Origin: an uncultured SAR86 cluster bacterium
GTDB taxonomy: Bacteria; Pseudomonadota; Gammaproteobacteria; Magnimaribacterales; D2472
Assembly: GCA_902594515.1 (NCBI GenBank)
Contig: CACJML010000006.1
Coordinates: 1-64,000 of the forward strand
Direction of reading: 5' to 3'
DNA length: 64,000 nucleotides
Of this stretch, positions 42,756 through 47,784 are shown piece by piece (position 1 is the first letter of the stretch; each line of letters opens with the position of its first letter). Under the pieces are notes generated by a model that worked only from the letters and a program-made list of their open reading frames with translations, searched no databases and was not told the origin of the DNA. The translations under genes and the position numbers were made by a program.

Positions 42756-43106
42756 TTATTGAACTCGATACATAATAGTTTTTTCACCATCTAAAAAATT
42801 AGCCTCATCTTTTCTGATGACATCTACAACTTCCTCCTGTGCACCTCTTGCAAAGAATCGTTCTAATCCATCTTCATCATCAAAGGTCAACTCTGTAATA
42901 ACATCAAATGGACTTTGGACGCTCTCAGATTCTAACGGCAGTGCATCATTAAGCATATTTGATTGAAGCAAGTATGTTCTTTTGTAGTCCGCCAATGTTG
43001 GAAAAAGACTCTCAATTAAAGGTACATGATTTTTTTCATAATATTCTTGAAATTTTTCGGCTGAAATAAAATCTCTCTTACAAATCAAAGCAACAAGTTT
43101 AGGCAT
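42756..43106 (-). CDS. EthD-domain protein
   Basis: 116 aa from ATG 43106 (MPKLVALICKRDFIS), with GGAG 7 bp upstream. The pattern KRDFISAEKFQEYYEKNHVP and the two-beta/alpha layout match the EthD family of dimeric ferredoxin-like proteins, found in ether and polyketide catabolism operons. The final LDGEKTIMYRV is typical as well. No catalytic role can be assigned. Confidence 0.8.
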   Translation of the reverse strand: MPKLVALICKRDFISAEKFQEYYEKNHVPLIESLFPTLADYKRTYLLQSNMLNDALPLESESVQSPFDVITELTFDDEDGLERFFARGAQEEVVDVIRKDEANFLDGEKTIMYRVQ

Positions 43107-43225
43107 AAGTTTCTCCAAAGTTAGATAAAAAATTATTTATACAATAGGGCATTGTTTAATATTAATTATTGATTTTTACTTTAGCAAACAAGAAAAAATC
43201 AAACTAGCTTACAATATTACTGATT

Positions 43226-44419
43226 ATGAAAATTGCTGTTGTAGGCTCCGGTATCTCTGGTTTAGGAGCATCTTATTACCTTGGTAAAAGACACGATATA
43301 GATTTATATGAGAGTGATACCCGCATTGGTGGTCACACACACACTCACAATATAAAACTGGAAAGAGAAATTAGAGTTGATTCCGGTTTTATTGTTTTTA
43401 ATGATCTCAACTACCCAAATCTTATTAAATTCTTTAATGAACTGGGAGTTTCTACTGCCAAAACTGATATGTCATTTTCTGTGTCCTCAAACACCAGCGC
43501 CTGGTCATCAAATGAATTTAGAAGATTAAATACTTTTTTGAAACCTGAAAAATTAAATTTTTTAAAAAATATCATTAAATTTAATCATGTAGCAAAGCAG
43601 AACTTTGCTGGAATTAGTTTTCGGGAATGGCTAGTAAAAAAAAATCTAAAAAAAGAGTTTATTAATGATTACGTTTTGCCAATGGCAGCAGCCATTTGGT
43701 CTACACCTACGCACAAAATTGGTGAATATCCCGTTGAATCTATGCTTGCATTTCTCAAAAATCACGGCTTATTAAAACTCATTAAGAGACCACAATGGCG
43801 ATTTGTAAATAATGGTAGCGCTTCTTATGTGAATGCAATTTTAGATTCATCCAGACTTAATAATGTATTTACAGGAGAGTCACCAGTTATCAATAAATTA
43901 AATCATCAATGGCAAATCCTAACATCCAATCATAACCTCAATTATGATCAAGTTGTGATTGCTACGCATGCAAATCAGGTTCCTGAATTATTGGCAAATT
44001 ATAAAGATTTTTCTTTTATGTCTAATTTTTCCTATAACACCAATAAAACAATACTGCATACTGATGAAAGTTTTATGCCAACAAGAAAAGAGCTTTGGTC
44101 TTCGTGGAATTCATTTAAGTATGATGATTACGAGTATGTCACTTATTGGATGAATAATCTGCAAAACCTTAAATCTAAAACAAATGTGTTTGTGACCATT
44201 GGTAACTTCCCTCAAATCAAAGAACAAAGCATTCTCAAAGTGATGCAATATGAGCATCCTCTATTTGATTTCACTTCTCAAGGAATAAAGGATAGGCTCA
44301 ACAAATTACAAGGATTAGATAATTTATATTTTGTAGGAGCTTACCAAGGATATGGTTTTCATGAGGATGGTCTAGCCTCTGCGCTAAAGGTAGCCAGGAT
44401 GATTGATCATGGAATTTAA
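43226..44419 (+). CDS. FAD/NAD(P)-binding amine-oxidase-like flavoprotein (COG2907 type)
   Basis: 397 aa. N-terminal FAD motif VVGSGISGLGASYYLG followed by the ESDTRIGGHTHTH segment typical of COG2907, and a C-terminal FAD-closing LYFVGAYQGYGFHEDGLAS. It is the first gene of a four-gene coupled cluster with a DUF1365 protein and two Cfa-like methyltransferases. From memory, Rhodobacter furan fatty acid synthesis pairs a Cfa-like methylase (UfaM) with a flavoprotein desaturase (UfaD); a similar role acting on methylated acyl chains is an inference. The DNA is very AT-rich here. Confidence 0.85.
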   Translation: MKIAVVGSGISGLGASYYLGKRHDIDLYESDTRIGGHTHTHNIKLEREIRVDSGFIVFNDLNYPNLIKFFNELGVSTAKTDMSFSVSSNTSAWSSNEFRRLNTFLKPEKLNFLKNIIKFNHVAKQNFAGISFREWLVKKNLKKEFINDYVLPMAAAIWSTPTHKIGEYPVESMLAFLKNHGLLKLIKRPQWRFVNNGSASYVNAILDSSRLNNVFTGESPVINKLNHQWQILTSNHNLNYDQVVIATHANQVPELLANYKDFSFMSNFSYNTNKTILHTDESFMPTRKELWSSWNSFKYDDYEYVTYWMNNLQNLKSKTNVFVTIGNFPQIKEQSILKVMQYEHPLFDFTSQGIKDRLNKLQGLDNLYFVGAYQGYGFHEDGLASALKVARMIDHGI

Positions 44420-45161
44420 TATATACGTTGGCAGTATTTTTCATCAAAGAGTTCTTGGAAAGAAACATCAATTTAAATACAAATTTTTTTCAGGCTACTT
44501 TAATGATGTTTACAGCTTTCAAGATAAGAAGTTTTTTTCGACAAAATTTAGCAAGATTTTTTCATTAGATTTTGATGATCATGGAACTAAAGAGACAATC
44601 AAAGCAATTAAGATATTTATAGATAAAAATCAAATTGACTCTAAAAATTTAAAATTAGATTTACTGAAAAAACCAAATTCTATTTTTGTTGAGGCTTTTA
44701 ATCCTGTTTGTTTTTGGTACCTAAAAAAACAAGGTAATGTTTTAGCTTTCATTGCAGATGTCACCAACACTTTTGGTGAAAGACAAATCTATTTTATTGA
44801 TAATGGTGGGAGGGAAATCAATTCAGAAATCTTTTATAAGGCTATAAAAAAGATGTATGTATCACCTTTCGCAAAGAAAAGTGGAATTTATAAATTTAAA
44901 ATCTCAGACCAACCCAATCAAACTGTCATCAAAGAATTTAATGATGATGAGGTATTAGAGATAAATACTGCTTTAAATGGATCTATACATAAATTTAGGG
45001 GCTTGAAGAAGAGTTACTTTTATTTTCGAATAATAATTTCAACTCTTTTAGTTGTTGCTAGAATACATTTACATGCACTTTTTATATGGCGGAAAGGCAA
45101 CCAAGCCTATAGCCATAATGGAAATGGTTATGCTAAATCGAATTATAAGAAACTGGATTAA
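44403..45161 (+). CDS. DUF1365 family protein
   Basis: 252 aa. The N-terminus IYVGSIFHQRVLGKKHQFKY and the block FNPVCFWYLKKQGNVLAFIADVTNTFGE are characteristic of DUF1365 (COG3496). The family nearly always sits between a COG2907 flavoprotein and a Cfa-like methyltransferase, as here; its own activity is not established. Overlaps the upstream gene by 17 bp and the next by 32 bp. A hydrophobic stretch (FYFRIIISTLLVVARIHLHA) near the end may contact the membrane. Confidence 0.88.
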   Translation: MIMEFNIYVGSIFHQRVLGKKHQFKYKFFSGYFNDVYSFQDKKFFSTKFSKIFSLDFDDHGTKETIKAIKIFIDKNQIDSKNLKLDLLKKPNSIFVEAFNPVCFWYLKKQGNVLAFIADVTNTFGERQIYFIDNGGREINSEIFYKAIKKMYVSPFAKKSGIYKFKISDQPNQTVIKEFNDDEVLEINTALNGSIHKFRGLKKSYFYFRIIISTLLVVARIHLHALFIWRKGNQAYSHNGNGYAKSNYKKLD

Positions 45162-46299
45162 TAAAAAACTCAAAACATTTGAAGATGGATCATTGAGATT
45201 ATCAGTGCCGGGTTGTTCAGATATTATCATCGGAAATGATAATAAAGCGCGCTTCAATCTTACCTTTACATCAATTAGAGGAATCTATCTAATTCTTCGA
45301 AGAGGCGTATTAGGTTTTACTGAGGGATTCATAAGAGGTTACTGGGTGACAGATAACTTGAAAGAAACCATGACCTTTTTAGCAAAAAACCTCACTAACG
45401 TTGAGAGTATTAAAAAGGGTAGCTCAAGAAAAATTATGGCTAAATTCAAGCATTGGTTAAGAGAGAATACAGTTTCGCGAAGCAAAAAAAATATCCATGC
45501 TCATTACGATTTGGGCAATAATTTTTACAAATTATGGCTTGATCCAAGCATGACTTATTCTTCAGCTTTCTTTCAAAATACTGAACAAGACACCCTTGAA
45601 TCTGCTCAAAAACAGAAATATCAAAAAATAATTGATAGCTTAAATCTTAAGCCAGGAGACAACATCCTTGAGATAGGTTGTGGATGGGGTGGTTTTATTG
45701 AGCATGCTTCAAAATTAGGAATGAATGTTACCGGTTTAACTATTTCAAAAGAACAATTTGAATATGCAACATCAAGAATCAAAAAATTAGATGGTACACA
45801 AAAGATTATTTATGAAGATTATCGTATGCATGAAGGATCTTATGATGCAGTTGTTTCAATTGAAATGCTTGAGGCAGTTGGGTCAAAGTATTGGGCCGAA
45901 TATTTCAATGCAATTAAGAAATTTTTAAAACCTAGATCGTCTGCACTTATTCAGGTAATTACCATGCATGATAAATATTTTAAAACTTATAATGTGGATC
46001 CTGATTTCATTCAAACCTATATATTTCCTGGCGGTGAGCTAATTTCAGATGAAGCATTTTTTAATTGCGCCTCAGCTACATCCTTAGAATGCAAAAAGGT
46101 AAGAAGTTTTGGAAAGTCCTATGCAAGAACCTTAGAAATTTGGAATGAGCAATTCCTAAACCAATGGGAGATTATCAAAACACTAGGTTTTGATATTAAA
46201 TTTAAGCGCACATGGGAAATGTATTATGCCTATTGTATAAGCGGCTTTTTAAGTAATAGATTGGATGTTTCACAATTTAAATTAACTACCGATGATTAA
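45130..46299 (+). CDS. Cyclopropane-synthase-like fatty-acyl methyltransferase (UfaM-like)
   Basis: 389 aa from ATG 45130, with GGAA 7 bp upstream; upstream ATGs at 45124 and 45118 are possible. SAM motif EIGCGWGGF (181-189), E248 in EMLEAVGSKYW and Y331 in YARTLEIW are kept. Two of the residues that bind bicarbonate in E. coli Cfa are changed: C139 is Ser145 (MTYSSAFF) and H266 is Gln275 (LIQVITMHD). These changes are typical of DUF1365-linked homologues, as far as I recall, and suggest methyl transfer to an acyl double bond without ring closure. Product unknown. Confidence 0.88.
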   Translation: MLNRIIRNWINKKLKTFEDGSLRLSVPGCSDIIIGNDNKARFNLTFTSIRGIYLILRRGVLGFTEGFIRGYWVTDNLKETMTFLAKNLTNVESIKKGSSRKIMAKFKHWLRENTVSRSKKNIHAHYDLGNNFYKLWLDPSMTYSSAFFQNTEQDTLESAQKQKYQKIIDSLNLKPGDNILEIGCGWGGFIEHASKLGMNVTGLTISKEQFEYATSRIKKLDGTQKIIYEDYRMHEGSYDAVVSIEMLEAVGSKYWAEYFNAIKKFLKPRSSALIQVITMHDKYFKTYNVDPDFIQTYIFPGGELISDEAFFNCASATSLECKKVRSFGKSYARTLEIWNEQFLNQWEIIKTLGFDIKFKRTWEMYYAYCISGFLSNRLDVSQFKLTTDD

Positions 46300-47299
46300 G
46301 ATTGGAATCTACTTGGCTGAGAGAGGCTTAATCCCTGACTTTATTTTGAATTTTTTTATTCAAAAGATTAGTCTTGGACGAGTGAACTCCGCAACAACAG
46401 ATAATGAAAAATTAACAGTTATAGATAAGCTTAAGTCTGGACCTATTGCAGAGAAAACATCTGATGCCAATGATCAACATTACGAGGTACATCCTGCATT
46501 TTTTCAACTGGTCTTAGGAAAGCATATGAAATATTCATGCTCACAATTCAATTCTAAGTCAGATGATTTAGACCAAGCTGAAGAAAATATGTTGCAACTA
46601 TATTTAGATCGAGCTGGCATTCAGGCAAATCAAAACATCCTTGATCTAGGATGTGGCTGGGGAAGCTTTTCTCTATTTGCTGCAGCGAAGTTTCCAACAT
46701 CAAAATTTACTGCCGTTAGCAATTCAAAAGATCAAATTAACTATATTAATGAACAGGCTAGAAGTAGAGGCCTAAATAACTTAAGTGCGATACAAAAAAA
46801 TATCAATGAGATGCAATTCAACGAAACTTTTGACAAAGTTATTTCAATAGAAATGTTTGAGCATATGCGTAATTACGAGTCTCTATTAAGCAAAGTTAGC
46901 GACTTTCTAGAACCAAATGGCGAGTTATTTGTTCATATTTTTTGTCATCGTTCGGCATGCTACTTATATGAGGCAAAAAATGAATCTGATTGGATGACAA
47001 GAAACTTCTTTGAGGGTGGCATTATGCCTTCGGAAGATATTTTTACTAATTTTGAAAATGATTTAAAGGTAGTGCGTTCATGGAAAGTCAATGGAACACA
47101 ATATGGTATGACATCTCAAAAATGGCTTCAGAAACATGATGAAAACAAATCTAAAATTATAACTTTGTTTAATCAACACTATGGGAATGGAAAAATTTGG
47201 TTTTTTAGGTGGAGAATGTTTTTCTTAACTTGCGCAAAGTTCTTCTCCATTAATGCCGGGAATGACTGGTATGTTACTCATTATTTATTAAAAAAATGA
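46292..47299 (+). CDS. Second Cfa-family SAM methyltransferase (coclaurine N-methyltransferase-like)
   Basis: 335 aa. SAM motif ILDLGCGWGSFSLFA (116-130). In contrast to its upstream neighbour it keeps Cys83 in MKYSCSQF, E190 in SIEMFEHMRNY and H215 in FVHIFCHRS. It lacks the ~110-residue N-terminal domain of true Cfa and so resembles the small-molecule N-methyltransferase branch. It overlaps the previous gene by 8 bp and the following nuclease by 4 bp. The substrate may be a lipid or a precursor in the same pathway; this is inferred from position only. Confidence 0.82.
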   Translation: MIKIGIYLAERGLIPDFILNFFIQKISLGRVNSATTDNEKLTVIDKLKSGPIAEKTSDANDQHYEVHPAFFQLVLGKHMKYSCSQFNSKSDDLDQAEENMLQLYLDRAGIQANQNILDLGCGWGSFSLFAAAKFPTSKFTAVSNSKDQINYINEQARSRGLNNLSAIQKNINEMQFNETFDKVISIEMFEHMRNYESLLSKVSDFLEPNGELFVHIFCHRSACYLYEAKNESDWMTRNFFEGGIMPSEDIFTNFENDLKVVRSWKVNGTQYGMTSQKWLQKHDENKSKIITLFNQHYGNGKIWFFRWRMFFLTCAKFFSINAGNDWYVTHYLLKK

Positions 47300-47784
47300 C
47301 TATGAAAATATTGTTCATATTTGTTGTTTCCTTGCTTGGGACGAATGCCTCAGCAGACATAATTGGTCCAGCCAAAGTAACCGATGGCGATACCATTGTC
47401 ATTAATGACATTCGAATAAGGTTCACAGGCAGCGACGCTCCGGAAAGTTATTTCTTCGGAAAAACTCAGACTTGTTTGGATGCAAATGGGATTGAGTGGG
47501 AATGCGGCAATGCTGCAACCTTAAAGCTCAAACAATTGATAAATAATCAAATAGTTAGATGCACTGATGAAGGTCAAGATAGATATGGAAGAACTTTAGG
47601 TATTTGTTACGTTGATGAAGTTGATTTGCAGGCAGAAATGGTCAAGTCTGGAATGGCAATTGCTTATTTGCGGTACTCTAGAAGATATGAAAATGAGCAA
47701 AACTATGCCAAAAAAGTTAAAGCTGGAATGTGGGCAGGTGAGTTTCAAGAGCCAGAGGTTTGGAGAAGAGAAAACAGAGATTAA
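47296..47784 (+). CDS. Secreted thermonuclease-family (SNase-like) protein
   Basis: 162 aa; signal peptide about residues 1-20 (MKILFIFVVSLLGTNASA after the initial MT). The OB-fold nuclease has KVTDGDTIVINDIRIRFTGSDAPE and DRYGRTLGICYV, containing the usual catalytic Asp, Arg and Glu positions. It probably degrades DNA or RNA outside the cytoplasm, supplying phosphate and nucleotides. It starts in the stop of the methyltransferase (ATGA), which may be fortuitous. Confidence 0.87.
   Translation: MTMKILFIFVVSLLGTNASADIIGPAKVTDGDTIVINDIRIRFTGSDAPESYFFGKTQTCLDANGIEWECGNAATLKLKQLINNQIVRCTDEGQDRYGRTLGICYVDEVDLQAEMVKSGMAIAYLRYSRRYENEQNYAKKVKAGMWAGEFQEPEVWRRENRD

Follow-up and report, generated by a model that had tools for sequence, protein, structure and literature searches.

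Four overlapping genes in a SAR86 genome

We analysed a 64,000-nt stretch of DNA from an uncultured SAR86 cluster bacterium (contig CACJML010000006.1, positions 1 to 64,000; hereafter the window), and in particular the locus at 43226-47299, which an earlier note had described as a coupled four-gene cluster for lipid modification. The host genome amounts to 1.36 Mb on 16 contigs and is 93% complete. Four intact open reading frames (ORFs), all on the same strand, were found at this locus, which confirms the coupled cluster, and their order and overlaps recur in relatives. The assignments proposed for them are as follows:

43226-44419, plus strand: ufaD (ATG to TAA, 397 amino acids), predicted flavin adenine dinucleotide (FAD)-dependent acyl desaturase, COG2907-like, assigned from Pfam NAD_binding_8/Amino_oxidase and homology
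44409-45161, plus strand: ufaO (ATG to TAA, 250 amino acids), strongly diverged DUF1365 protein, predicted furan-ring-forming O2-dependent enzyme, assigned from PF07103 and homology
45130-46299, plus strand: ufaM, or MT1 (ATG to TAA, 389 amino acids), predicted S-adenosylmethionine (SAM)-dependent acyl 11-methylase, Cfa-like, assigned from homology and an active-site signature
46292-47299, plus strand: fufM, or MT2 (ATG to TGA, 335 amino acids), predicted SAM-dependent second methylase and dimethyl furan former, assigned from homology and an AlphaFold model

Pfam placed an FAD/NAD-binding amino-oxidase fold in the ufaD product, DUF1365 in that of ufaO (E 3e-41) and CMAS in those of ufaM (E 2e-77) and fufM (E 2e-42). 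The ORFs overlap by 11 bp (ufaD/ufaO), 32 bp (ufaO/ufaM) and 8 bp (ufaM/fufM). The latter two values agree with those given previously, but the 17 bp reported for the first overlap would require ufaO to start at the upstream TTG 44403, and the 11-bp overlap is preferred because the ATG and this overlap are common to the close relatives L028 and L029. No other DUF1365 protein was found in the host genome, nor any further full-length CMAS protein beyond MT1 and MT2, and the genome therefore has no separate cyclopropane fatty acid synthase (Cfa).

Proposed assignment of the four enzymes to furan fatty acid biosynthesis

All three enzyme families of the known furan fatty acid pathway are represented in this cassette. 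UfaM has been shown to methylate cis-vaccenoyl chains, UfaD, which carries an FAD domain, to produce a methyl-diene, and UfaO, a DUF1365 protein, to generate the furan ring, the oxygen for which comes from O2, while in R. palustris a second methyl group is added by FufM (RPA0924) (Lemke 2020, PMC7380195). The earlier note named UfaM and UfaD alone; with UfaO and FufM left out of account, the cluster resembled a reduced pathway with an odd addition. Its link to furan fatty acids is strongly supported. The reduced pathway, in contrast, was rejected, since the DUF1365 protein corresponds to UfaO and UfaM, UfaD and UfaO are thus all present; likewise the second methyltransferase is no mere addition but matches FufM, a known dimethyl-forming enzyme. 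Proteins of Rhodopseudomonas (R. palustris XCP, not CGA009) and of Cereibacter-type genomes served as references for the comparisons given here.

MT1 is 41-44% identical to UfaM (E 1e-92 to 1e-100) and 29-32% identical to a true Cfa-type protein of Rhodopseudomonas. At the positions of the E. coli cyclopropane fatty acid synthase (EcCFAS) it carries Ser instead of Cys139, Ala instead of His240 and Gln instead of His266. The same pattern (Gln at 266, Ala at 240 and Ser, Ala or Gly at 139) is common to the two reference UfaM proteins and 29/29 UfaM-like proteins surveyed, whereas the four Cfa sequences compared have Cys139, His240 and His266. The catalytic bicarbonate of EcCFAS is bound by Glu239, His266 and Tyr317 (PMC11387697), and MT1 has Glu, Gln and Tyr at these positions, so that the ligand set of Cfa is incomplete. 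Judged by its active-site residues MT1 is placed with UfaM, and we infer that loss of the bicarbonate-holding His may be the reason why UfaM yields a methyl-alkene and not a ring.

The UfaD proteins whose genes adjoin ufaO in Rhodopseudomonas and Cereibacter-type genomes are 33-36% identical to that of the window (E 1e-77 to 1e-84), in which ufaD likewise lies next to ufaO, with the 11-bp overlap described above. UfaO is more distant, with 24-27% identity to its Rhodopseudomonas and Cereibacter counterparts (E about 1e-14 to 8e-12), and retains all 14 invariant columns of the family together with 20 of the 27 conserved ones. Its AlphaFold model is confident (pLDDT 88) and beta-rich. A fold search with this model gave no good solved match, the best being heme-binding nitrobindin (E 2e-3, TM 0.3); this weak resemblance may at most serve as a lead for the cofactor of UfaO and is not taken as evidence.

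MT2 matched the FufM counterparts from three genomes of Rhodopseudomonas with 37-38% identity over about 332 amino acids (E 1e-81 to 1e-87) and is only 24-27% identical to UfaM (22-27% across UfaM and Cfa), and is thus closer over its full length to the RPA0924-type protein than to either. The reference used here is the R. palustris XCP counterpart and not the experimentally tested protein itself. The two non-UfaM CMAS genes of R. palustris were reported to show 38% and 26% identity to UfaM (PMC7380195), and since the corresponding values for the two XCP proteins against Cereibacter UfaM are 37% and 28%, the third Rhodopseudomonas CMAS protein was taken as FufM. Although MT2 belongs to another subfamily than Cfa, it retains E190, H215 and Y271, the equivalents of the EcCFAS Glu/His/Tyr set, and has an intact E-x-F-E-H motif of coclaurine N-methyltransferase; all these residues are invariant in 29 FufM-type proteins.

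Distribution, linkage and genomic context

A survey of gene neighbours in related genomes, which the earlier note had suggested, revealed the uninterrupted order ufaD-ufaO-ufaM-fufM in five genera from three families of the order (the window's own genus g1, g3, two genera of f93, and f94). The cassette recurs with similar overlaps at 80-84% identity within the genus and at about 37-54% in another genus, and the translational overlap of ufaM and fufM is retained in all five genera. This recurrence far exceeds chance. The phylum-wide survey covered 396 other genomes. FufM-type proteins of full length stand clearly apart from all other matches in it (E <1e-120, next match 3e-43) and were found in 33 genomes, 30 of which also encode a DUF1365 protein, compared with 138 of the 363 others (Fisher p 1.8e-9). 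In 19 of these 30 genomes the distance between fufM and ufaO is no more than about 6 kb, and co-occurrence and linkage with the ufa genes were seen in more than one class.

DUF1365 was detected in just 15 of 107 genomes of the window's family, and the trait is thus patchy there. In the FufM tree the order forms one clade, with MT2 of the window in a subclade separate from R. palustris FufM; the placement of the plant N-methyltransferases in this tree is unreliable owing to long branches. Some lone fufM genes branch at the base of the order's clade and others (from g7, g8 and G516) among the cassette genes, and this nesting suggests that ufaD, ufaO and ufaM were lost while fufM was kept. Stand-alone FufM-type genes of the same family, with no DUF1365 or UfaO found, lie at L196 6813-7820, L197 6157-7173, L198 6078-7088, L199 6264-7313, L200 6146-7171 and L207 6427-7440. 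At L034 7677-8866 and 9538-11644, the same-genus genome G048 carries ufaM in two frames (a frameshift or an assembly error) together with a tandem doubling of ufaD-like sequence, and its fufM-type gene is located elsewhere (L205 6116-7141). At the loci L163, L165, L168 and L169, from GC-rich genomes, the UfaM-type regions are often merged with long upstream frames, which are mechanical ORFs and not shown fusions. A search of viral contigs with UfaO gave no match, and plasmids gave matches of only 24-37%, which serve as context.

Upstream of the cassette, one further feature was delineated:

43183-43217, plus strand: probable promoter block 5' of ufaD, with TACAAT at 43210-43215, 10 nt ahead of the ATG

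Four genomes of the same genus share this block almost unchanged, whereas the DNA farther upstream varies. No sigma-E/ChrR-type site could be recognised in it by eye, and a sigma-70 promoter scan, whose sites were no more frequent than in shuffled sequence, was not used. The 93%-complete genome yielded no match to the anti-sigma factor ChrR (TIGR02451), while the control genome of Caulobacter was positive, and control by ChrR was therefore rejected. In this respect the lack of regulators pointed out previously is borne out. RSP1087-1089, accessory genes in the operon of Rhodobacter, have been shown to be dispensable (PMC7380195). The host genome encodes a rhodopsin, a photolyase and FabA; with the FabA match above the cut-off, unsaturated acyl chains are provided for.

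A staphylococcal-nuclease-like gene at 47296-47784 overlaps fufM by 4 bp (ATGA). In relatives it does not directly adjoin the cassette but follows it at a distance of a few hundred bases to about 1.2 kb; it was therefore rejected as a fifth member, and its coupling to fufM is recent or accidental. On the other side, an EthD-domain gene (42756-43118, minus strand) sits between a PEMT-like gene and ufaD, and no EthD match was found at this place in same-genus relatives.

Proposed pathway, alternatives and significance

Homology, active-site signatures, gene linkage and genome context, from which we infer catalysis, exact products and physiological role, lead us to propose that the cluster is a ufaD-ufaO-ufaM-fufM operon making furan acyl chains in membrane phospholipids, including the dimethyl step (probability about 0.75). 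The roles of UfaM, UfaD and UfaO in this proposal are very likely correct, and that of FufM is likely. By analogy with homologues of proven function, UfaM would transfer a methyl group from SAM onto C11 of cis-vaccenoyl chains and release a shifted trans double bond without cyclopropane closure; UfaD would then form the conjugated methyl-diene, using FAD with O2 as acceptor. UfaO is predicted to insert an oxygen derived from O2 and to close the furan ring, giving a monomethyl furan acid (9M5-like), and FufM to methylate the other ring carbon, giving a dimethyl acid (9D5-like). The products are thus probably mono- and dimethyl furan fatty acids, which, in the membrane of a light-exposed, rhodopsin-bearing bacterium, could scavenge radicals and singlet oxygen.

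Several findings weigh against this proposal. UfaO is altered at 7 of 27 otherwise conserved positions (including R90N, G93F and H126Q), and its identity to UfaO-type proteins from other orders is just 20-31%. Three of the 33 survey genomes with a FufM-type gene, all of one genus, have no UfaO, and 19 same-family genomes (of g5, g7 and g8; several of them 92-96% complete) carry a FufM-type gene with no DUF1365 detected. The FufM family may therefore not be limited to furan acids, and these lone genes lower our confidence that MT2 acts only on such acids. It is accordingly conceivable that ufaD, ufaO and ufaM give a monomethyl furan acid, while the substrate of MT2, as a general coclaurine-N-methyltransferase-like enzyme, would be an amine or a different lipid headgroup. 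In favour of this stand the plant alkaloid N-methyltransferases, the best solved relatives of MT2 (E 9e-63), on one of which, a coclaurine N-methyltransferase, its AlphaFold model (pLDDT 91) superimposes with TM 0.95 and a root-mean-square deviation of 1.8 Å, along with the intact motif and the lone genes; but the full-length match to the FufM counterpart, the strong tendency to co-occur with and lie near ufa genes, the ufaM overlap in five genera and the fact that the experimentally tested FufM is of the same subfamily all speak for a furan methylase, so that we regard this alternative as serious yet unlikely. The plant coclaurine and pavine enzymes (6GKV, 5KN4) share the fold and the catalytic Glu/Glu/His motif with MT2 but use alkaloid amines, whereas the MT2 gene is linked to acyl-lipid genes.

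The divergence of UfaO allows for another acyl product, for instance a diene with a methyl branch, or a furan differing in methyl position or chain length. The changes at its conserved residues recur across the sampled relatives, but the invariant residues are all retained, the model folds confidently and ufaO is locked in position between ufaD and ufaM, and such a product appears quite improbable. It is also rather unlikely that the product of the cassette in this lineage is an as yet undescribed fatty acid, furan or other; this reading draws on the drift of UfaO at otherwise conserved positions and on the relatives that have fufM without UfaO, where FufM-type enzymes would function outside furan synthesis. 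Lastly, the CMAS Pfam family and the nearest solved structures, which are Cfa enzymes, would fit a cluster yielding cyclopropane acids, with MT1 as its Cfa; the three active-site changes, present in all UfaM-type proteins and in no Cfa compared, led us to reject a plain Cfa, and with the closer match to UfaM and the adjacent ufaD and ufaO this reading is extremely improbable.

The proposed furan operon has clear parallels. Like the window, R. palustris (RPA2569-2571) and Rhodobacter sphaeroides (RSP2144, RSP1090 and RSP1091) possess all three Ufa enzyme families, and in the former the genes are also adjacent; in the window, however, the order is ufaD-ufaO-ufaM, the genes overlap, UfaO is strongly diverged, the cassette adds only fufM and the genome has no ChrR match. 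The 9M5 furan fatty acid methylase FufM (RPA0924) belongs to the same coclaurine-N-methyltransferase-like subfamily as MT2, with invariant catalytic residues, but its gene is unlinked to ufaMOD in R. palustris, whereas it is the fourth operon gene in the window and is linked in many other Pseudomonadota. Light or singlet-oxygen clusters, such as the Legionella lytica plasmid locus L020, have their first three genes (FAD protein, DUF1365, Cfa) in identical order; the window cassette lacks their DUF2878, SDR and photolyase genes, has fufM instead, and no ChrR was found in the genome. In Halomonas, ufaD, ufaO and ufaM are consecutive, and its ufaM gave 11-methyloctadec-12-enoate in E. coli (PMC12089945).

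A literature search combining SAR86 and furan fatty acid found no paper in the library searched. The novelty anticipated earlier holds only for the lineage and the compact four-gene set, of which we found no description for such bacteria, and not for marine bacterial furan acids, long reported from Shewanella and Marinomonas (PMC3528120), and the chemistry itself is known from Rhodobacter and Rhodopseudomonas. Overall, the cassette represents the complete known pathway, probably extended to the dimethyl product, as a compact operon in a streamlined bacterium. A linked fufM together with the UfaM residue signature would offer a simple genomic test for makers of mono- or dimethyl furan acids. 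Beyond that, the residue signature points to a possible cause for alkene release by UfaM instead of cyclopropane closure. Copepods are among the marine organisms reported to contain furan acids, and whether these are eaten or self-made is not known (PMC11766502). If the proposal is true, furan fatty acids are a product of small, rhodopsin-bearing and probably marine bacteria in which one operon also encodes the dimethyl step, and a bacterioplankton source of marine furan acids becomes testable.
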